Assembly (NCBI GenBank): GCA_029961745.1
Contig: CP124680.1
Span: forward strand, 3,348,001-3,412,000
DNA length: 64,000 nucleotides
Source: Nocardioides sp. L-11A
GTDB taxonomy: Bacteria; Actinomycetota; Actinomycetes; Propionibacteriales; Nocardioidaceae
Reading direction: 5' to 3'
Shown here: positions 38,381 through 63,958 of the stretch, piece by piece
Layout: each line of letters starts with the position of its first letter
Position numbering within the stretch: the first letter of the stretch is position 1
Made by a program: the position numbers and the translations under genes
Notes under the pieces: generated by a model
Databases searched by the model: none
Told to the model about the DNA's origin: nothing
The model's input: only the letters and a program-made list of their open reading frames with translations

Positions 38381-38402
38381 GGGTCCCTATCCCACGGGAC
38401 CC
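38381..38402. terminator. GGGTCCC/GGGACCC hairpin after acyl-CoA ligase
   Basis: Seven-base perfect arms with an 8-base loop, nine bases past the stop. It can act as the ligase terminator, and it is also the first of two palindromes arranged like those before the flp pilin gene. Confidence 0.55.
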
Positions 38403-38406
38403 GCGA

Positions 38407-38420
38407 GGGACCATAGTCCC
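38407..38420. promoter_or_regulatory. DosR-box-like palindrome upstream of tad operon
   Basis: GGGACCATAGTCCC differs at one core position from the known DosR/DevR consensus GGGACTWWAGTCCC. Its centre is 22 bases from the preceding palindrome and about 155 bases before cpaB. A NarL-family regulator is encoded within the same locus. Binding is untested. Confidence 0.5.
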
Positions 38421-38502
38421 GACGGGCCATCCCGCAGGTTGCGATCGGACATCATTCAGCGGCATTTGGCGATTTCGCTCACGCCACGGGCGCCGTCTTC
38501 GC

Positions 38503-38568: not shown

Positions 38569-39288
38569 GTGGACCGTCGCAGATTGTTGCTCGTCGTGGC
38601 CGCGGTGATCGCCGCGCTCGGTGTCGGGCTGGTCTTCGTGTTCGCCCGCGGCGCCGAGTCCCGTGCCGCGGAGAAGTACCAGACGACCAAGGTCGTCACG
38701 GTCGCCGCCGGGAAGACCGTCCTCCCCGGTGAGAGCATCAAGTCCGCCCTCGACACCGGCAAGCTCGCCGAGACCGAGGTCCCGCAGGGCCAGGTCCTCG
38801 ACAACGCCCTGCGCCAGGGTGATCTCGGCAACCTCGACGGCAAGGTCGCACTGACCACGCTGTACGCCGGCGAGCAGCTGCTGTCGACGAAGTTCGGCGG
38901 GGTCGGCGACACCGTCGACGTCGCGTCACTGCCGCTGCCGCAGGGCATGATCGCCAAGCCGGAGTCCTTCGACCTCCCGGTGGGCTCCTTCATCGAGCCC
39001 GGGTCGCAGCTCGCCGTCTTCCTCACGGTCAACCCCGCCACGCCCACCTGCCTGCTCATCGACCGCGTGACGGTGCTCTCCAAGGGCGCGCAGACCACGA
39101 CCACGGTGGAGGGCGGCGCGACCGAGGGCAGCGCTCCGGCGCTGCACCTGGCGGTGACCCAGCAGCAGTTCGAGTGGCTCCAGGACGGCCGTGAGCGCGG
39201 CAAGCTGTCCGTGGCCCTGCTGAACTCGGAGAGCGAGGTCCAGCTCGACAAGACCGGACCCTGCGCCACCATCCGCGACAGCGAGTGA
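38569..39288 (+). CDS. cpaB: CpaB/RcpC-like Flp pilus assembly protein (SAF domain)
   Basis: 239 residues. One amino-terminal membrane helix (about 5-27) precedes an exported region with an SAF-like beta-clip (KTVLPGESIKSALDTGKLAE) and the RcpC/CpaB carboxyl region. In Tad systems this protein helps build the pilus channel. GTG start with GGGAGG eight bases before it. It leads the operon cpaB-cpaE-cpaF-tadB-tadC and lies nine bases before cpaE. The annotation rests partly on that context, as CpaB sequence similarity is weak. Confidence 0.82.
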   Translation: MDRRRLLLVVAAVIAALGVGLVFVFARGAESRAAEKYQTTKVVTVAAGKTVLPGESIKSALDTGKLAETEVPQGQVLDNALRQGDLGNLDGKVALTTLYAGEQLLSTKFGGVGDTVDVASLPLPQGMIAKPESFDLPVGSFIEPGSQLAVFLTVNPATPTCLLIDRVTVLSKGAQTTTTVEGGATEGSAPALHLAVTQQQFEWLQDGRERGKLSVALLNSESEVQLDKTGPCATIRDSE

Positions 39289-39297
39289 GGTCGTCTC

Positions 39298-40485
39298 ATG
39301 CCGGTTCTCGTCGAACAGGATCCCACCCTCGTCGACAGCCTGGTCCGGGCGATGCCCACCGGCTCCCAGGCGGTCGCCACGACCGAGCGGGCGCTGGCGT
39401 GGCTCGACCAGCACCCTGACGAGTACGTCGTCGCCCTCGGGCCGTCGGTCGAGCTGCTCTCGGCGCTCGCGACCTCGGAGGAGCTACGCATCAAGCGACC
39501 GACCGTCAGCGTCGTCCTGGTCCGCGACCACTTCGACACCGAGGTCCTCACCCGGGCGATGCAGGCCGGCGTCCGCGACGTCGTCGTCGCCGGCGGCGAC
39601 GAGAAGGCGCTGACGAGCGCGATCGAGCGCGCCCACCAGCTCTATCAGGCCCTGCGCGGGCCGGGCGGCGCCCGGCAGCTGGGCCGGGTCGTGACCGTGT
39701 TCTCCCCCAAGGGCGGCGTCGGCAAGACCACCTCGTCGGTCAACCTGGCCCTGGCCCTCACCGATCGCGGCGCCCGCAAGGTCTGCCTCGTCGACCTCGA
39801 CCTCGCGTTCGGCGACGTCGCCATCACGATGCAGCTCTTCCCGACCCACTCGATCGAGCAGGCCGTGGGCTCCGAGGACTCCATCGACCTCGCGATGCTC
39901 GAGGGCTTGCTGACCCGGCACCAGGACACGCTGACCGTGCTCGCGGCGCCGGCCCACCCCGACGTGCGCGAACGGGTCACGCCGCTGCTGATCTCCCGGA
40001 TCCTGCGCGCCCTGCGCGACGGCTTCGACTACATCGTCGTCGACACCTCGCCGTCGTTCGACGACGCGACCCTGACCGCGCTGGACGAGACCGACGAGTG
40101 CGTGATCGTCGCGACGCTCGACGTACCCACGCTCAAGAACGTCAAGGTCGCTCTCGAGACGATGGACATGCTCAGCATCGCCCGCGGGCACCGGCACCTC
40201 CTGCTCAACCGCGCCGACGACCAGGTCGGCATCAGCGTCGAGAAGGTCGAGAGCATCCTCGGCATGCCGGTGAGTGCCCAGGTCGCCACCGCCGTCGACA
40301 TCGCCGCCGCCACCAACGCCGGCACCCCGATCGTCTCCCACAAGCCGGGGCACCCGGCGAGCCTCGCCTACGCGCACCTCGCCGCGTCGGTGACCGGCGA
40401 GCCGATCCCGGCACCGGCGGCCGCGGCCCCGCAGCCGACCGAGGCACCTCGCTCGCGCGGGCTGTTCCGGCGCGGAAGGAGCTAG
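39298..40485 (+). CDS. cpaE: CpaE/TadZ-like ATPase for pilus localisation
   Basis: 395 residues: an atypical receiver-like domain (1-115) and a ParA/MinD-type ATPase with the deviant Walker A SPKGGVGKTT near residue 138, switch I DLDLAFGDVA and switch II VVDTSPSFDD. The last 40 residues are Ala/Pro/Arg-rich. TadZ/CpaE proteins place the Tad machine at the cell pole or membrane. Ribosome site and spacing are ordinary; cpaF follows after two bases. Confidence 0.88.
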   Translation: MPVLVEQDPTLVDSLVRAMPTGSQAVATTERALAWLDQHPDEYVVALGPSVELLSALATSEELRIKRPTVSVVLVRDHFDTEVLTRAMQAGVRDVVVAGGDEKALTSAIERAHQLYQALRGPGGARQLGRVVTVFSPKGGVGKTTSSVNLALALTDRGARKVCLVDLDLAFGDVAITMQLFPTHSIEQAVGSEDSIDLAMLEGLLTRHQDTLTVLAAPAHPDVRERVTPLLISRILRALRDGFDYIVVDTSPSFDDATLTALDETDECVIVATLDVPTLKNVKVALETMDMLSIARGHRHLLLNRADDQVGISVEKVESILGMPVSAQVATAVDIAAATNAGTPIVSHKPGHPASLAYAHLAASVTGEPIPAPAAAAPQPTEAPRSRGLFRRGRS

Positions 40486-40487
40486 TC

Positions 40488-42017
40488 GTGTCCAGCCTCT
40501 CCGAGCGTCTCGCCGCCGCCCGCCGTGAGGCTGCGGCCCAGGGCCGGCATGCCGCGACGCCCTCGGCCGACGCCGAGCTCCTCGCCGAGGTCGTCGGTGT
40601 GTCCGAGTCGACCGCCGAGGTCCCGGCCGCGGCGGCGCCGGAGCCCGCCGCGACCGAGCGCAGGACCCCCGGCCCGCTGTCCTCCCGAGCCGCCGCGGCG
40701 GCCGGCGAGAGCCGAGGCGGCCGCCGGATCGCCGGCACCGAGTCCGACCGGCTCGAGGACCTCAAGTCCAGCGTGCACGCCGAGCTGATCAAGCAGCTCG
40801 GCCCGCACCTCTACGACGCCGAGATGGACCAGGACGAGCTGGACCGCACCGTCCGCACCGTCCTCTCCGACGTCCTCGGCGCCCAGGACCGGCCGCTCAG
40901 CGCGGCCGACCGGGCCCGGGTCACCCAGGAGATCACCGACGACATCCTCGGCTACGGCCCGATCGACCCGTACCTGCGCGACCCCGAGGTCTCCGAGGTG
41001 ATGGTCAACGGCCACGACGACGTCTGGCTGGAGAAGGACGGCCGACTGGTCAAGGTCGAGGCGCACTTCGCCGACGAGGCGCACCTGCGCCGCACGATCG
41101 ACAAGATCGTGTCCCGCATCGGCCGTCGGGTCGACGAGTCCTCCCCCATGGTCGACGCGCGCCTGCCCGACGGCAGCCGCGTCAACGCCATCGTCCCGCC
41201 CCTGGCGATCGACGGCTCCGCGCTGACCATCCGCAAGTTCTCGACCGACCCGCTGACCGTGCAGGACCTGATCAACTTCGGGTCGCTGACGCCGCAGACG
41301 GCCGACTTCCTCGACGCCTGCGTCCGGGGCCGGCTCAACATCATCGTCTCCGGCGGCACGGGCGCCGGGAAGACGACGACGCTCAACGTGCTGTCCTCCT
41401 TCATCCCCACCGACGAGCGGATCGTCACGATCGAGGACGCCGCCGAGCTCCAGCTCAAGCAGGACCACGTCGTCCGGCTCGAGTCGCGGCCCGCCAACAT
41501 CGAGGGCAAGGGCGCGGTGACCATCCGCGACCTGGTCCGCAACAGCCTGCGGATGCGGCCCGACCGCATCGTCGTCGGCGAGGTCCGCGACGCCTCCGCC
41601 CTCGACATGCTCCAGGCCATGAACACCGGCCACGACGGCTCCATCTGCACCCTGCACTCCAACGGGCCGCGCGACACCCTCTCCCGCATGGAGACGATGG
41701 TGCTGATGGCCGGCATGGAGCTGCCGATCCGCGCGATCCGCGAGCAGGTCGCGTCCGCGGTCGACCTGATCGTGCACCAGACCCGTTTCAAGGACGGCTC
41801 GCGCCGGATCACCCACATCACCGAGGTGGAGCGGATGGAGGGCGACATCATCACCCTCCAGGACGTCTTCGTCTTCGACAACTCGGCCGGCTTCGACGAG
41901 AACGGCCGGGTCCTGGGCCGGCTCCGCTCCACCGGGCTGCGCCCGAAGTTCCTGGAGAAGCTCGCCTACGCCAACGTCGCGGTCGACCCGACGATCTTCC
42001 GGACGGAACGCATCTGA
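40488..42017 (+). CDS. cpaF: CpaF/TadA secretion ATPase
   Basis: 509 residues. A disordered Ala-rich amino region (1-85) precedes the secretion ATPase: Walker A GGTGAGKTTT near residue 290, Asp box/EDAAELQL, Walker B with VGEVRDASALDML, and the His box LHSNGPRD. It powers Flp pilus extension. The GTG at 40488 has GGAAGGA seven bases upstream; the frame continues further upstream inside cpaE but without similarity. Its stop overlaps the start of the next gene by one base (TGATG). Confidence 0.93.
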   Translation: MSSLSERLAAARREAAAQGRHAATPSADAELLAEVVGVSESTAEVPAAAAPEPAATERRTPGPLSSRAAAAAGESRGGRRIAGTESDRLEDLKSSVHAELIKQLGPHLYDAEMDQDELDRTVRTVLSDVLGAQDRPLSAADRARVTQEITDDILGYGPIDPYLRDPEVSEVMVNGHDDVWLEKDGRLVKVEAHFADEAHLRRTIDKIVSRIGRRVDESSPMVDARLPDGSRVNAIVPPLAIDGSALTIRKFSTDPLTVQDLINFGSLTPQTADFLDACVRGRLNIIVSGGTGAGKTTTLNVLSSFIPTDERIVTIEDAAELQLKQDHVVRLESRPANIEGKGAVTIRDLVRNSLRMRPDRIVVGEVRDASALDMLQAMNTGHDGSICTLHSNGPRDTLSRMETMVLMAGMELPIRAIREQVASAVDLIVHQTRFKDGSRRITHITEVERMEGDIITLQDVFVFDNSAGFDENGRVLGRLRSTGLRPKFLEKLAYANVAVDPTIFRTERI

Positions 42018-43954
42018 TGCGCCGGCAGCGCACTGTCCGCGGGGTCGCGTCGCTGCTGACCGCCCTGCTCGCCCTGCTCGCGCTGCTGGTCGCCGGTCCG
42101 GCCCACGCCGCGGACGGCGGCATCGCCCACGTCGAGTCCACCGGCGACGGCATCCGGATCCTCGTCGACGTCCCGGCCGGCGTCCGCGTCGACCTCGCCG
42201 GGGTGCGCGCGACGCTCGACGGCGACGAGCTGGACGCCGCCGCGACCAGCACCAGCTCCGGGTCGGCGGTCAGGCGGACCACCGTGCTGGTCATCGACAC
42301 CAGCAACTCGATGCGCAAGCAGGGTCGGTTCGAGGCCGCCCAGCGCGCCGCCACCACCTATCTCGCCGCCGTCCCCGAGGACGTCGAGGTCGGCATCGTC
42401 ACCTTCGACAGCACCGTGGAGGTCGCCCTCGAGCCCACGACCGACCGCGCCGCGGCCCGGACGGTGATCGGCGGTCTGTCCCTGCAACGCAACACGCTGC
42501 TCTACGACGGCGTCATCGCCGCCACCGATCTCGCGGGCGACAGCGGGCAGCGGTCGCTGCTGCTGCTCTCCGACGGTGCCGACGCCGGGAGCAGCGCCGC
42601 CCTGGAGGACGCGACCGCCGCGATCGAGGACGCGGGCACCCGGGTCCACATCGTCGGCCTCGACCTCCCCGAGGACCAGCTCACCCCGCTGCGCGCGATC
42701 GCCGAGGCCGGCAAGGGCGACGTGATCACCTCCAGCGGCAGCGCCCTGGCCGCGGCCTTCGCCGAGCAGGCCGAGGCCCTGGCCGACCAGGTCCTCGTCA
42801 CGGCGCCCCTGCCGGACGGCTTCTCGGCCGACGTGGCGACCGTCCAGGTCACCCTGCCGACCGCTGCCGGCGAGCCGGTGGTGGCCCGCGCCCTCGCCAA
42901 GATCGAGACCGCCAGCACGCCCGGGACCGCCGCGCCGCTGCCCACGATCTCCGACGACGGCACCGGCTGGACCGCACCCGACTGGCTGCTGTGGGTCGGC
43001 ATCGGCGTGTTCGCCGCCGGCCTGCTCGCCGTGGCCCTGCTGCTCGTCCCCGCCCGTCCGGCCCCGATGAGCATCGCGGACCGCGTGACGGCGTACAGCA
43101 CGCGGGTGACGGGGCTCGAGGAGCGGGAGCAGCACAAGCCCCAGGCCGACCCGGTGCTCGACCAGGCCAAGGCCGCCGCCGCGGGGATCCTGGAGCGCAA
43201 CAGCGCCCTCAACGACCGGATGACCCGGCGTCTCGCTGCGGCCGGCAGCGAGTTCAAGCCCTCGGAGTGGCTGCTGCTCCACATCGGCACGGTGCTCGCC
43301 GGCGGTGTGATCGGGCTGCTCCTCGGTCGGGGCAGCATCATCGTCGGCATCCTGCTGATGGTCGTTGCCTTCTTCCTGCCCCCGCTGTACCTCACCTACA
43401 TGGCCGGGCGCCGGCGCCGCGCCTTCGACGCTGCGCTCCCCGAGGTCCTCCAGCTCCTGTCCGGGGCGCTGAGCGCCGGCCTGTCCCTGGCCCAGGCGGT
43501 CGACACCGTGGTCCGCGAGGGCCCCGAGCCGATCGCCTCGGAGTTCAAGCGGGTGCTGGTCGAGGCCCGGATCGGCGTGGCGATCGAGGACGCCTTCGAC
43601 GGCGTCGCCGACCGCTTCCAGAGCAAGGACTTCCGGTGGGCCGTGATGGCGATCCGGATCCAGCGCCAGGTCGGCGGCAATCTCGCCGAGCTGCTGACCA
43701 CGGTCGCCGCGACGATGCGCGAGCGGCAGTTCCTGCGCCGGCACGTCCGGGCCCTCTCCGCCGAGGGCCGGATGTCCGCGGTGATCCTCTGCGCGCTGCC
43801 GCCCGTCTTCGCCGTCTACCTGTTCCTCACCAACCGTGAGTTCCTCAACCCGCTGGTGGCCGATCTCCGCGGCTGGATCCTGCTGGGATTCGGTGCCGTC
43901 TGGATGGCTGTCGGCACCTTCTGGATGTCCCGCATGGTGAAGGTGGACCTCTGA
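42017..43954 (+). CDS. tadB: vWA domain fused to TadB-like inner-membrane platform
   Basis: 645 residues. Signal peptide 1-31 (cleavage after AHA), then a secreted von Willebrand A domain with an intact MIDAS start DTSNS at 94-98 and SDGAD later, a linker, a membrane helix near 321-343, and a type II secretion F domain (about 470-640) with the usual TadB helices. Ordinary TadB is about 300 residues without vWA. The fusion places an adhesion- or assembly-type domain outside the cell on the pilus platform. Both ends overlap neighbours by a base (TGATG), so it is one coupled gene. Confidence 0.88.
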   Translation: MRRQRTVRGVASLLTALLALLALLVAGPAHAADGGIAHVESTGDGIRILVDVPAGVRVDLAGVRATLDGDELDAAATSTSSGSAVRRTTVLVIDTSNSMRKQGRFEAAQRAATTYLAAVPEDVEVGIVTFDSTVEVALEPTTDRAAARTVIGGLSLQRNTLLYDGVIAATDLAGDSGQRSLLLLSDGADAGSSAALEDATAAIEDAGTRVHIVGLDLPEDQLTPLRAIAEAGKGDVITSSGSALAAAFAEQAEALADQVLVTAPLPDGFSADVATVQVTLPTAAGEPVVARALAKIETASTPGTAAPLPTISDDGTGWTAPDWLLWVGIGVFAAGLLAVALLLVPARPAPMSIADRVTAYSTRVTGLEEREQHKPQADPVLDQAKAAAAGILERNSALNDRMTRRLAAAGSEFKPSEWLLLHIGTVLAGGVIGLLLGRGSIIVGILLMVVAFFLPPLYLTYMAGRRRRAFDAALPEVLQLLSGALSAGLSLAQAVDTVVREGPEPIASEFKRVLVEARIGVAIEDAFDGVADRFQSKDFRWAVMAIRIQRQVGGNLAELLTTVAATMRERQFLRRHVRALSAEGRMSAVILCALPPVFAVYLFLTNREFLNPLVADLRGWILLGFGAVWMAVGTFWMSRMVKVDL

Positions 43955-44874
43955 TGCTTCTGCTGCTCGCCCTCATCCTCTTCGCCGGCGCCATCGCGGC
44001 GCTCGGTGCCGCCTTCGCCAAGGAGCAGCCCCAGGGCCTGGCCCGCGCCCTCGAGGCGCTTGAGAGGTCCGGTCATGCCGGACAGGAACTGGTCGACGAG
44101 GTCGATCCACCCTTCGCCGAGCGCATCCTGGCCCCTTTCCAGGCCCGCGCCCTGACGCTCGGGCGGCGCCTGACCGGTGCCGACAAAGCTGAGAGGCTTC
44201 GGCGACGACTCGATCTCGCCGGCAATCCGCAAGGTTGGACCGTCGACCGAGTGCTCTCGATGAAGGTGCTGTTCGCCGTCATCCTGCCGATCGTCGTTCT
44301 CGCCTACGGAGCCATGCTCGGCGGCTCACCTACCACTCTCGTGGTCATCGCCATTGCGGCTGCCGCCCTCGGCTTCATGGGCCCCGATCTCTATCTCCAG
44401 AACAAGTCGGCCCACCGGGCCGACCAGATCCGCCGGTCCCTGGCCGACGCCGTCGACCTGCTCACCATCAGCGTGGAGGCCGGCCTCGGCTTCGACGCCG
44501 CGGTCCAGCAGGTCGCCCGCAACACCGACGGACCGGTGGCCGAGGAGTTCTCCCGGGTGCTGCGCGAGATGCAGCTCGGCATGAGCCGCTCGGACGCCCT
44601 CAAGGCGATGGGGGCGCGCAGCAACGTCGAGGACCTCAACACCTTCGTGGGCTCGATGGTGCAGGCCGACGCCTTCGGCATCCCGATCGGCCAGGTGCTG
44701 CGCGTGCAGTCCAGCGAGATCCGGGTCAAGCGACGCCAGTACGCCGAGGAGAAGGCGCAGCAGGTGCCGGTCAAGATCATGATCCCGCTGATCCTCTTCA
44801 TCCTGCCGTGCCTGTTTGTGGTGGTGATGGGCCCAGCGGTGTTGAACGCGATCGACGCGTTCAACGGCAACTGA
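43954..44874 (+). CDS. tadC: TadC-like pilus platform protein
   Basis: 306 residues of the type II secretion F family: membrane helices at about 2-20, 105-150 and 270-300, with the conserved cytoplasmic block (LADAVDLLTISVEAGLGFDA, then EEFSRVLREMQLG). With TadB it forms the inner-membrane platform for Flp pili. It starts on the last base of tadB's stop. The kinase gene follows 29 bases later with its own promoter. Confidence 0.9.
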   Translation: MLLLLALILFAGAIAALGAAFAKEQPQGLARALEALERSGHAGQELVDEVDPPFAERILAPFQARALTLGRRLTGADKAERLRRRLDLAGNPQGWTVDRVLSMKVLFAVILPIVVLAYGAMLGGSPTTLVVIAIAAAALGFMGPDLYLQNKSAHRADQIRRSLADAVDLLTISVEAGLGFDAAVQQVARNTDGPVAEEFSRVLREMQLGMSRSDALKAMGARSNVEDLNTFVGSMVQADAFGIPIGQVLRVQSSEIRVKRRQYAEEKAQQVPVKIMIPLILFILPCLFVVVMGPAVLNAIDAFNGN

Positions 44875-44890
44875 GCGGGCGGCACGGCAC

Positions 44891-44896
44891 TAGGGT
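44891..44896 (+). promoter_or_regulatory. -10 box of the tad-locus histidine kinase (TAGGGT)
   Basis: TAGGGT is followed by seven bases and the ATG. The two-component pair can therefore be transcribed apart from the pilus operon. Confidence 0.6.
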
Positions 44897-44903
44897 GGAG
44901 ACC

Positions 44904-46478
44904 ATGCCCAGCAGCCAGACCTACGCGGTGGTGGGCGCGGCGCGCCTCTTCGCGCTGCTGGCCATCGGCGGCCCGATCGCCTGGTTCCACCAGGAGCAGG
45001 GCCTGCTCGCACTCGCGGCCGTCGGCGGGATCTGGATCTACCAGGCAGCGACGGCGACCCGTCGCGAGCTGGAGCTCTCGCTCAGCCCGGCGACCGAGGC
45101 CGCGGCCATCGGCGTGGTCTGCGCCCTCGGCATGATCGACGCACCGGTGATCCTCGCCGCTCTCGTCGTCCCCCCGCTCTATGCCACCGCGATCGCCGGG
45201 GTGCGGACCATGCTCCGGACCGTGCTGGTCGAGCTGATCACCGTGGTCGCCCTCGGCCTGATGTGGTGGGAGAACGTCTCGGCTGACCAGGCGGTGGCGA
45301 TCTTCACCTGGACCATGGCCGGCCTGGGCCTGAGCCTGATCGCGGCGGTCACCTTCTCCTCCGACCGGGTCACGGACCCGCTGGCGCCCTATCGCGACGC
45401 CCAGGAGCACCTCAAGCAGCTCAACGACCTGGCCGGCAGCCTGAGCTCCGGCCTCGACGTCGGTGCGCTGGGCGGCGAGCTGCTCAGCCAGGTCAGCGAC
45501 GACATCCCCAACCGCGCCCTCGTGCTGTACGTCCCCCGGGGCGACACCCTGTCCCCGGTGGCTTCGACGGTCGAGCTCGAGCCGGCCGACGCGATCGCGG
45601 TCGAGACGCTCGCCGGCGACGTCCGGCTGCAGGCCCCCGAAGCCGGTCACCCCGTCGAGATCGGCGAGGGCTTCGCCTTCCGGGTCAGCGAGCAGGCCAT
45701 CGTCGCCGGCCTGCGCCCCGTCGGCTCCGACGTCGGCCGCGCCCTGCCCCTCGCCTCGGTCGCGCGCGATCTCGCCGACATGGCGGTCAAGCTGGACGCG
45801 GCCCTGCTGTTCGCCCAGTTCCGCGATGCCGCCACCGCCGACGAGCGCAACCGACTCGCCCGCGAGATGCACGACGGCGTCGCCCAGGACATCGCCTCCC
45901 TCGGCTACATCATCGACGCGCTCGCCGCGCGGCCGGCCGACGAGCAGCAGGCCCAGGCCCTCGGCATGCTGCGCGAGCGGGTGTCGAAGGTGGTCGCGGA
46001 GGTGCGCCAGTCGGTGATGAACCTGCGCACCAGCATCGGCGAGAGCGAGAGCCTCGGCGCCGCCATCAGCAATGTCGCGCGCCACCTCTCCGAGGCCTCC
46101 GGCATCCCGATCCGGGTCCGGCTCGACGAGCAGCCCACCCGGCTGCGGCCCGAGGTGGAGGCCGAGCTCTTCCGGATCGCCCAGGAGGCGATGAACAACG
46201 CGGTCAAGCACGCCCGCGCGACGTCCATCGACGTCCGCTGCCAGGTCTACGCCCCCGAGGCGGTCATCACCGTCACCGACGACGGCGTCGGCCTGCAGAC
46301 GGCCCGATCCGACTCGCACGGGCTGAAGATCATGCGCGAACGTGCCAGACTGATCGGCGCGGATCTCCTGGTCCGCGACAACGCCAGCCGGGGCCTGACG
46401 GTCACGGTCGCCCTCAAGATCCCCCGGAGCACGCTCACCACCGAAGGCGCCTCCCCGATCCTCACGGAGCAGCGATGA
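44904..46478 (+). CDS. Sensor histidine kinase in the tad locus
   Basis: 524 residues: about six membrane helices (10-155), a GAF-like region (about 175-310), then phospho-acceptor His323 in LAREMHDGVAQD (HisKA_3) and an ATPase domain with FRIAQEAMNNAVKHA and DDGVGL. The ATG is fixed by TAGGGT seven bases upstream. Its stop overlaps the response regulator start (ATGA). It lies between tadC and the pilins, so control of pilus genes is likely. The signal is unknown. Confidence 0.92.
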   Translation: MPSSQTYAVVGAARLFALLAIGGPIAWFHQEQGLLALAAVGGIWIYQAATATRRELELSLSPATEAAAIGVVCALGMIDAPVILAALVVPPLYATAIAGVRTMLRTVLVELITVVALGLMWWENVSADQAVAIFTWTMAGLGLSLIAAVTFSSDRVTDPLAPYRDAQEHLKQLNDLAGSLSSGLDVGALGGELLSQVSDDIPNRALVLYVPRGDTLSPVASTVELEPADAIAVETLAGDVRLQAPEAGHPVEIGEGFAFRVSEQAIVAGLRPVGSDVGRALPLASVARDLADMAVKLDAALLFAQFRDAATADERNRLAREMHDGVAQDIASLGYIIDALAARPADEQQAQALGMLRERVSKVVAEVRQSVMNLRTSIGESESLGAAISNVARHLSEASGIPIRVRLDEQPTRLRPEVEAELFRIAQEAMNNAVKHARATSIDVRCQVYAPEAVITVTDDGVGLQTARSDSHGLKIMRERARLIGADLLVRDNASRGLTVTVALKIPRSTLTTEGASPILTEQR

Positions 46479-47137
46479 ACCACCCCGCGGGTGACTCGAC
46501 CACCGTCCTCTTGATCGACGACCACGAGCTGATCCGCGACGGCCTCGGCGCCGTCATCGACCTGGAGCCGGACCTCAGCGTCGTCGCGACGGCCGGCTCG
46601 GTGGCCGAGGGCGTGCAGCGCTACCACGAGGTGCGCCCCGACGTGGTGATCACCGACCTGCAGATGCAGGACGGCACCGGGCTCGACGTGGTCCGCACCC
46701 TGCGCCGGGAGAGCGACGAGGTGGGCCTGATCGTGCTGACCATGCACTCCGGCGACGAGCAGATCTTCGCCGCCATGCAGGCCGGCGCGTCCGGCTTCGT
46801 CGGCAAGGACGCTCCGTCCACCGAGGTGATCAAGGCGGCGCGGCACGCCGCGGTCTCCCCCAAGGCCTTCGTCTGCGCGGGCCTGGTCGGGGCGATGATG
46901 CGCCGCCAGTCGGCCGAGTCGACCGCGCTCACCGAGCGTGAGCACGACGTGCTGCTGCTGCTCGCCGAGGGCCTCAACGCCGCGGCGATCGGTCAGCGGC
47001 TCTACCTGTCGGAGTCGACCACCAAGTCCCACATCGCCCGGATCTACCAGAAGCTGGGCGCCGCCAACCGGGCCCAGGCGCTGGTCACCGCGATGCGGAT
47101 CGGGCTGCTCTCGACCGTGCAGCCGTCGGCCCGCTGA
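46475..47137 (+). CDS. NarL/LuxR-type response regulator in the tad locus
   Basis: 220 residues: receiver with Asp15-Asp16, phospho-acceptor Asp61 (VVITDLQMQ) and Lys in GFVGKDAP, then a LuxR HTH (LTEREHDVLLLLAEGLNAAA). It is translationally coupled to the kinase by an ATGA overlap. The palindromes at 38381-38420 and 47159-47201 flank the structural genes and pilin and are candidate binding sites; NarL-family proteins bind such inverted half-sites. A hairpin lies 22 bases past the stop. Confidence 0.93.
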   Translation: MNHPAGDSTTVLLIDDHELIRDGLGAVIDLEPDLSVVATAGSVAEGVQRYHEVRPDVVITDLQMQDGTGLDVVRTLRRESDEVGLIVLTMHSGDEQIFAAMQAGASGFVGKDAPSTEVIKAARHAAVSPKAFVCAGLVGAMMRRQSAESTALTEREHDVLLLLAEGLNAAAIGQRLYLSESTTKSHIARIYQKLGAANRAQALVTAMRIGLLSTVQPSAR

Positions 47138-47158: not shown

Positions 47159-47179
47159 GGGACCCGTAGCACGGGGTCC
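47159..47179. terminator. GGACCC/GGGTCC hairpin after response regulator
   Basis: GGACCC (47160-47165) and GGGTCC (47174-47179) pair around an 8-base loop. It can end the two-component transcript, and it is also the first of a two-palindrome arrangement before the pilin gene. Confidence 0.5.
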
Positions 47180-47183
47180 GGCG

Positions 47184-47201
47184 CTAGTCCGAAGTGACTA
47201 G
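47184..47201. promoter_or_regulatory. CTAGTCC palindrome upstream of flp pilin
   Basis: CTAGTCCGAAGTGACTAG is an inverted repeat centred 23 bases after the GGACCC palindrome. It matches the sequence at 63941-63958 at 16 of 18 positions. It is a candidate operator for pilin transcription, 112 bases before the start codon. Confidence 0.55.
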
Positions 47202-47312
47202 CCGCGAGAAGACGAACTCCCGATCCGTCACCGGGACGATTCCGGCAGAGTTCCGGCTATCGGGGAGCACTCCCCGGGGACACGCAGCATCAGTGCACAC
47301 AGGGAGAACCCG

Positions 47313-47507
47313 ATGATCCAGTACCTCACGATCCTGTTCAACGCCCGCTTCGCGAAGGACGACGAGCGTGGTGCGACCGCCGTCGAGTACGGCCTGCTCG
47401 TCGCCCTCATCGCCGCCGCCATCGTCGCGATCGTCGCTCTGCTGGGCGATGACATCAAGGGTGCCTTCGACACTGTCGAGAACTCCATCGGCGGCAGCCA
47501 GGGCTGA
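47313..47507 (+). CDS. flp: Flp-family type IVb pilin
   Basis: 64 residues, the structural subunit of the Tad pilus. The prepilin site is RG/ATAVEYGLLVALIA, with Glu at the conserved +5 position and a hydrophobic helix that follows. The short leader (18 residues, including basic residues) and small size are typical. The start ATG has AGGGAG six bases upstream. It has its own promoter region with two palindromes, and a hairpin after it separates it from the second pilin. No prepilin peptidase gene is in the window. Confidence 0.95.
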   Translation: MIQYLTILFNARFAKDDERGATAVEYGLLVALIAAAIVAIVALLGDDIKGAFDTVENSIGGSQG

Positions 47508-47586: not shown

Positions 47587-47757
47587 GTGAACTCATCGGG
47601 TGGTGAGACGCAGCGGGGCGCGACCGCTGTCGAGTACGGCCTGCTCGTCGCCATGATCGCAGCGATCATCGTGTTCGCCGTCATCCTGTTCGGCGAGGAC
47701 GTGACAATGCTGTTCGAGAACACGAGCGCGAGCGTCGACAGCGCGGTCAATCCCTAG
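47587..47757 (+). CDS. Second small Flp-type pilin
   Basis: 56 residues: MNSSGGETQRGATAVEYGLL and a hydrophobic helix, ending in a short Ser/Val tail. It has the same G/ATAVEYG processing site as flp but a shorter leader (11 residues) and different tail, so it may be a minor pilin. GTG start. Its last 11 bases overlap, tail to tail, the end of the M48 peptidase gene. Confidence 0.85.
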   Translation: MNSSGGETQRGATAVEYGLLVAMIAAIIVFAVILFGEDVTMLFENTSASVDSAVNP

Positions 47758-63940: not shown

Positions 63941-63958
63941 CTAGTCCGAAAGGACTAG
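63941..63958. promoter_or_regulatory. CTAGTCC palindrome near right edge
   Basis: CTAGTCCGAAAGGACTAG, perfect 7-base arms, flanked by an outer GGCAG/CTGCC pair. It matches the site before the flp pilin (47184-47201) at 16 of 18 bases. The gene it may control lies beyond the window. Confidence 0.55.

Follow-up and report, generated by a model that had tools for sequence, protein, structure and literature searches.

A NarL-type operator before the Flp pilin gene of Nocardioides is shared with whiB4/wblA and may be read by OrrA

The window analysed here, a stretch of 64,000 nucleotides, covers positions 3348001-3412000 of one 5.68 Mb contig of Nocardioides sp. L-11A and carries a Tad/Flp pilus locus on its forward (+) strand. 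Aided by Pfam, we read the gene order as acyl-CoA synthetase, cpaB, tadZ/cpaE, cpaF, tadB, tadC, histidine kinase, NarL-type regulator and flp. The machine genes cpaB to tadC (38569-44874) are followed by the histidine kinase (44889-46478; HisKA_3, HATPase_c, with five hydrophobic stretches near the N end), by the NarL/FixJ-type response regulator of the tad operon (46475-47137), hereafter the tad regulator, and by the Flp pilin gene flp (47313-47507; PF04964, E 2e-14). A second Flp-like pilin gene lies at 47587-47757 and holds the second PF04964 match of the genome (47611-47727). The set of cpaB, cpaE/tadZ, cpaF, tadB, tadC and flp was complete here by Pfam, and 40 fetched relatives have the same genes. 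TadB (42017-43954) carries a fused von Willebrand factor A (VWA) domain, and a whole-length match was found in many, not all, same-genus relatives. Gene names rest on Pfam for the tad locus, the sugar transferase mentioned below and some neighbour genes, and were otherwise given by eye. Among 80 named relatives of the tad regulator, nearly all from Nocardioides with a few from Pimelobacter, Marmoricola and unassigned MAGs, the nearest belong to N. carbamazepini and Nocardioides sp. LHD-245 (97% identity).

The earlier note on this DNA had described matching modules of two palindromes before the tad operon and before flp, and all four stretches are present, letter for letter, where it had placed them. 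On the cpaB side, GGGTCCC-8-GGGACCC (38381-38402, +), a possible terminator hairpin 8 bases past the acyl-CoA synthetase stop, precedes the DosR-like GGGACCATAGTCCC (38407-38420, +); on the flp side, GGACCC-8-GGGTCC (47160-47179, +), 22 bases past the response regulator stop, precedes CTAGTCCGAAGTGACTAG (47184-47201). The module itself dissolved on comparison with relatives and was rejected: neither first palindrome was present anywhere in 40 sister loci, and the hairpin tendency across loci was unremarkable. When the fold energy of the 60 bases after the stop codon was compared with mononucleotide shuffles, this strain gave z = -3.0 after the synthetase stop, whereas the medians across loci were -0.2 (n=39) and -0.89 (n=41), with z under -2 in 5 and 11 loci. 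The proposal that the first palindromes are terminators keeps in its favour their place close behind stop codons and the fold energy of this one strain, but not conservation.

The element that is conserved is the second palindrome at flp, which we redefine as the 7-2-7 palindrome TAGTCCGAAGTGACTA (47185-47200, +), extended in this strain by C 47184 and G 47201. The consensus, TAGTC[C/A]-N4-[G/T]GACTA, spans 16 bases in the NarL-type 7-2-7 layout, with positions 1-6 and 11-16 conserved as an inverted repeat around an A/T-rich centre. The genome-wide search that the earlier note had proposed for this palindrome bore it out. TAGTCC-N4-GGACTA with at most one mismatch occurs at nine places, seven of them outside long GC3-rich frames; a second gene caller puts the other two just before a gene (L024) and at a gene end (L016). 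The strict consensus occurs at 5 places, compared with 0 for the reversed control. At two mismatches its 81 places are nothing special beside the 254 of the reversed control, which leaves only near-perfect matches informative by themselves.

Conservation was examined in sister loci chosen by tadB, matches to which were found in 64 of 116 genomes; 40 of the 63 from other strains were fetched, all of the same genus. Matches to the kinase, the regulator and flp lie in the same place in all 40, with flp inverted in two, and the flp operator scores at least 9/12 in every one. Between regulator and flp, 37 of the 40 reach 10/12 and 28 are strict; L046 has 9/12, and in the inverted-flp loci L062 and L064 the site stands before the inverted gene (9/12 and 10/12). 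With this finding we dropped the idea that these two loci had lost the site together with a change in the recognition helix. Where two flp genes are present (L041 and L065), each has its own site. In a partly overlapping sample, the 76 of the 80 named loci with flp no more than 1.5 kb from the regulator, 71 have a site of at least 10/12 and 47 a strict site in the 1.5 kb that follow the regulator; among 1323 control windows taken from these loci, the corresponding counts are 83 and 2. On these alignments the predicted pilin operator is real and genus-wide; its sharing with whiB4/wblA, described below, is the finding. No operator of Flp/Tad pili in Nocardioides was found in the literature searched, most subscription journals lying outside that search. 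For Micrococcus luteus, the accessible part of PMC8467076 places mutations that affect com genes close to an operon whose genes include cpaB-like and cpaE-like ones and a sensor kinase; no mention of a palindrome was found in that part.

To define the promoter, 37 flp upstream regions (36 relatives and the window) were aligned on the operator. Counted from the operator start, they share two elements, a C-GAT box spanning +35 to +39 and, at +61 to +67, a sequence resembling a -10. In the box, at offsets 35 and 37-39, C is kept in 31, G in 34, A in 32 and T in 33 of the 37 rows; in the window it corresponds to CCCGATCC (47219-47226, +), in the -35 area and conserved in most rows. Conservation likewise points to CAGAGT (47246-47251, +), 61 bases after the operator start, as the likely -10. 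If transcription starts seven bases after it, the operator centre falls near -66. Promoters of a whiB gene, read towards whiB, show the same geometry, with a GTCTGT-like element at +35 to +40 and a TACCTT- or TAACTT-like element from about +61 to +63. Two unrelated promoters, those of flp and whiB, thus have this operator in common, and its distance from the -10 as well. The whiB gene adjoins a gene for a penicillin-binding protein with a PASTA domain (ponA2) and genes for ArsA-like ATPases (the latter by eye), which we take to be the surroundings of whiB4 and wblA. At ponA2 itself (L023, L074-L123), a TACCCT-like -10 recognized by eye often stands about 12 bases before the ATG, which suggests a leaderless transcript.

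Before cpaB, a corrected register gives the probable weak operator TAGTCCCGACGGGCCA (38414-38429, +; 10/12), 139 bases from the gene. Ten members of the clade share this register (the window, L224-L227, L229-L232 and L236), 135-140 bases from cpaB in those listed. TAGTCC and GRRCCA are kept in 10/10 of them and the DosR-like left half GGGACC in 5/10, although choosing these members for their site biases the count towards the right half. When all 15 aligned rows are taken, the 16 columns of the site are no better kept than what surrounds them: their mean identity is 0.61, that of the whole stretch 0.70 and that of its upstream part 0.38. A strict site precedes cpaB in L070 and weaker sites occur in other loci, but in many loci nothing exceeds what chance gives (10/12 is reached by 61 of 1600 random windows of 380 bases), and the window's own site, a two-mismatch match, is weak alone given the reversed control. 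We therefore regard it as a probable operator in this clade, not a general one. Of the claim that pilin and machine answer to one regulator, what stands is the NarL-type operator before flp, its weaker copy before cpaB in this clade and a strict copy before a distant tadE/G-like operon; on this pattern, flp and the tad machine may share a regulator.

The cpaB stretch had also been read as a DosR/DevR box, and it does lie one base from the core GGGACTWWAGTCCC. No conserved core was found, however: this strain has one mismatch, and the left half GGGACCATAGTCCC provides is the less conserved side. GGGAC-N4-GTCCC, for which the earlier note had proposed a search of promoters, has 28 occurrences in the 5.68 Mb genome, where its reverse has 4, but marks no promoter set, 12 of the 15 fetched places lying inside a long GC3-rich frame; with one mismatch it is found 4 times in the window, fewer than the 10.0 of shuffles. 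The DosR/DevR reading was dropped on the intragenic position of most of these places and the poorly kept left half at cpaB, and the resemblance of the flp operator to the DosR box, like the paired first palindromes, is incidental. GGGAC-N4-GTCCC is nevertheless seven times commoner than its reverse.

Across the genome, strict sites lie before flp, a sugar transferase gene, whiB4 and a tadE/G-like operon, and between genes for a PLP decarboxylase and a uracil-DNA glycosylase. The sugar transferase site, TAGTCCGAAAGGACTA (63942-63957, +), is the third in the window and stands about 100 bases before a Bac_transf gene that starts just past the window end; N. carbamazepini (L099) has it likewise. 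Sites recur at tadE/G-like genes (this genome, L086, L098 and L106; L082 with PF13400), at SigB-type sigma factor genes (L089, L097 and L105) and at genes for CAP-domain proteins (L024, with one mismatch, and L087). As far as an annotation that is partial and mostly by eye allows, the target set leans to the cell surface. Some arrangements were noted in passing. In L089, L097 and L105 the site is flanked on one side by the SigB-type sigma factor gene and on the other by a group of genes that includes a DosR-like regulator (assigned by eye). At L016 (1501-1516) it overlaps the stop of the PLP decarboxylase-like gene, 246 bases before the uracil-DNA glycosylase-like gene, with similar cases in L090 and L107. 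Overlapping tandem operators shifted by 14 bases occur in L085 (2355-2384), L108 (2482-2511) and L112 (2506-2535), and at 2062459-2062488 of this genome, where the second copy is imperfect.

The earlier note had suggested that the kinase/regulator pair of the locus has a dedicated regulon of its own, and genomes without the tad regulator bear directly on it. An ortholog (E 1e-50 or better) was found in 59 of 116 genomes, all of the same genus. Twelve same-genus genomes lack it, and none of these has a Flp match, two being only 84-85% complete; within the genus, regulator and flp are gained and lost together. The absence is polyphyletic: in a tree built from ponA2 of 22 genomes, among them 9 that lack the regulator, it requires 6 changes, at least 3 of them forced by well supported branches. 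The whiB operator nevertheless reaches at least 10/12 in 12/12 of the regulator-less genomes. They hold 11 strict sites, of which 9 lie between whiB and ponA2, 1 by a sigma-factor-like gene and 1 elsewhere; the three genomes without a strict whiB site score 10, 11 and 11 of 12 there. The operator likewise reaches at least 10/12 in 35/35 regulator-bearing genomes fetched by their ponA2 gene, and is thus present in all 47 Nocardioides chosen without the motif, 12 of them without flp or tad regulator. Two second ponA-like loci (G039 and G052) that scored 7/12 were excluded as paralogs of the whiB-linked gene. With 13 further regulator-bearing genomes whose whiB site was found via the motif itself, 48 of the 59 regulator-bearing genomes are covered. 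Because the operator is kept in 12/12 regulator-less genomes, something other than the tad regulator must keep it. A regulon strictly dedicated to the tad regulator was rejected on these whiB sites, which occur with the same spacing in Streptomyces as well.

The reader we propose is OrrA, whose control of wblA in Streptomyces coelicolor was reportedly described by Zhu et al. in 2022. A candidate ortholog was present in 24/24 Nocardioides tested, with at least 73% identity to the copy of this genome; copies of two flp-less genomes are 93% identical to each other and 76-78% identical to it. Combining G055 and G061, Pfam gives the gene order kinase, lpqB, phosphoribosyltransferase, hpf, regulator, secA. 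This genome has the same order as far as the regulator, and the 12 kb read from it contain no secA. By the SCO numbers, we take this position to be the place of OrrA beside MtrAB. A table in the available part of the review PMC9739842 gives SCO3008, close in number to MtrB/MtrA (SCO3012/3013), and the same part states that OrrA directly regulates wblA in S. coelicolor. The assignment of orthologs rests on sequence and gene order, the Nocardioides copies having been compared among themselves. Two traits expected of an OrrA-WblA regulon are present, an ortholog in the genome and a whiB4/wblA site at the same spacing to the -10.

The comparison was extended to other genera. In Streptomyces, TAGTCCGTTCGG[A/G]CCA precedes whiB in 9/9 genomes fetched (family f20), and TAACGT stands some 62 bases from the first base of this sequence; genus and WblA name come from one of the nine, whose WhiB matches Streptomyces WhiB/WblA at up to 100%. 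OrrA was found in 19 of 22 genomes tested outside Nocardioides. A whiB site of at least 10/12 is present in 13 of these 19 (G181 doubtful, and six belonging to f20) and in 0 of the 3 without OrrA; six of the 19 have OrrA and no 10/12 whiB site. Of all fetched upstream regions of putative whiB orthologs outside the genus, 18/37 reach 10/12, nine of them from Streptomyces. No OrrA binding sequence was found stated in the literature searched, which left out most subscription journals, and the motif described here would be OrrA's own site.

That OrrA is the reader has, in our estimate, a slightly better than even chance of being right. A division of labour is possible, if doubtful, in which the tad regulator reads the sites at flp, cpaB, tadE/G and the exopolysaccharide gene, OrrA reads the near-identical site at whiB, and the two share a target because both are NarL-type. 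Gene neighbourhood speaks for it, as do the joint occurrence of regulator and flp, both missing from the 12 same-genus genomes above, and the reported precedent of PprB, a two-component regulator of the tad locus in Pseudomonas aeruginosa. A hand tally of this genome and 19 regulator-bearing genomes with complete place listing puts 30/71 strict sites outside flp, whiB and tadE/G (23 of the 30 looked at, all but G062:695786, G051:C23, G051:C56, G026:C15, G021:C16:135327, G007:C12:167303 and G053:C16:109430), against 2/11 in the 12 genomes lacking the regulator. OrrA acting alone does not predict this excess. Since the reversed control itself has 11 places in the 20 genomes and 2 in the 12 genomes, the excess is signal in part only. 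The palindrome centre also differs: at flp it is AA, with A at position 8 in 73 of 92 and at position 9 in 72 of 92, whereas at whiB position 9 is T in 47/59 and position 8 is even. Counting C/T against A/G at positions 6 and 11 gives 27:16 at flp and 5:32 at whiB (Fisher p 9e-6, uncorrected for relatedness). One reader does not explain the difference; a single reader does suffice for the spacing common to both promoters. The recognition helix of the tad regulator is unlike OrrA's, and across three genomes this regulator has at most 41% identity to the other NarL-type regulators found. Among seven genomes of other genera with Flp and no regulator ortholog, five have no strict site, and G106 and G108 have one each, not at flp, a comparison confounded by relatedness.

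It is unlikely that another genus-wide regulator, for instance of the DosR-like L155 group, the L213 group or another family, reads all the sites. Several NarL-type regulators of this genome are reciprocal best matches with those of two flp-less genomes, and a DosR-like regulator accompanies one class of sites, at the SigB-type sigma factor gene; yet OrrA alone among them is reported, in the literature found, to act directly on wblA (PMC9739842, in the part available), and the DosR core is not the conserved element. Joint reading of the flp operator by OrrA and the tad regulator, perhaps as a heterodimer, is quite unlikely. Pili would then form only when global developmental and local surface or envelope signals coincide, and the differing centres at flp and whiB would be the trace of two dimers. 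BldM and WhiI form a heterodimer in Streptomyces. Very improbable, finally, is a reading without any regulator, in which the palindromes terminate transcription or arose by chance: the first palindromes do stand close behind stop codons, with the strong fold after the synthetase in this strain, but the hairpin tendency noted above is unconserved, and at the second flp palindrome position, sequence and distance to the -10 are conserved even with flp inverted, which led us to reject a terminator there.

On present sequence evidence, OrrA is the most likely reader and the tad regulator a possible second. With OrrA as reader, the palindrome at flp, and more weakly that at cpaB, would be a NarL-type operator through which the pilin promoter is wired into the OrrA-WblA circuit. 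A dimeric response regulator would bind the operator, centred about 66 bases upstream of the inferred flp transcription start, and from there would bring in RNA polymerase by class I activation. We infer that this regulator is the orphan NarL-family OrrA, and that its Nocardioides circuit would take in the Tad pilin promoter, tadE/G, the weaker tad-operon site and the exopolysaccharide gene, with a possible second input from the kinase and regulator encoded in the tad operon itself. A link between Tad pili and the OrrA-WblA circuit would be new, with binding predicted. Operator, promoter spacing, a short list of target genes and a proposed known regulator are now named. If the reading is right, WhiB4/WblA and Tad pili are switched together, which would couple attachment to surfaces with a regulatory circuit described in filamentous bacteria, and the operator sequence can be used to seek OrrA targets in other Actinomycetes.

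Among known operators, NarL binds the 7-2-7 site TACYYMT-N2-AKRRGTA. The operator described here shares its layout, the outer TA, the pyrimidines and the C/A at the sixth place, and differs in having G instead of C at the third base. The DosR/DevR core GGGACTWWAGTCCC is also a NarL-type palindrome, one base from the cpaB stretch, but its half-sites are oriented oppositely and it is absent from the flp site of this strain. The BldM group I operator TCACcCgnncGgGTGA, given in the available part of PMC4125116, is likewise a 16-base 7-2-7 palindrome of a NarL/FixJ-type response regulator, with the half-site TCACCCG compared with TAGTC[C/A]N here. PprB resembles the tad regulator in being named as controlling a tad/Flp locus, a likeness drawn from its description. 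The closest parallel is OrrA-wblA in S. coelicolor: the operator stands at the same distance before the whiB4/wblA -10 in Nocardioides and in 9/9 Streptomyces. Tad pili are not mentioned in the OrrA-wblA account in the available part of PMC9739842, whereas in Nocardioides the operator is found additionally before flp, the tadE/G-like operon and the sugar transferase gene and, weakly, before the tad operon.
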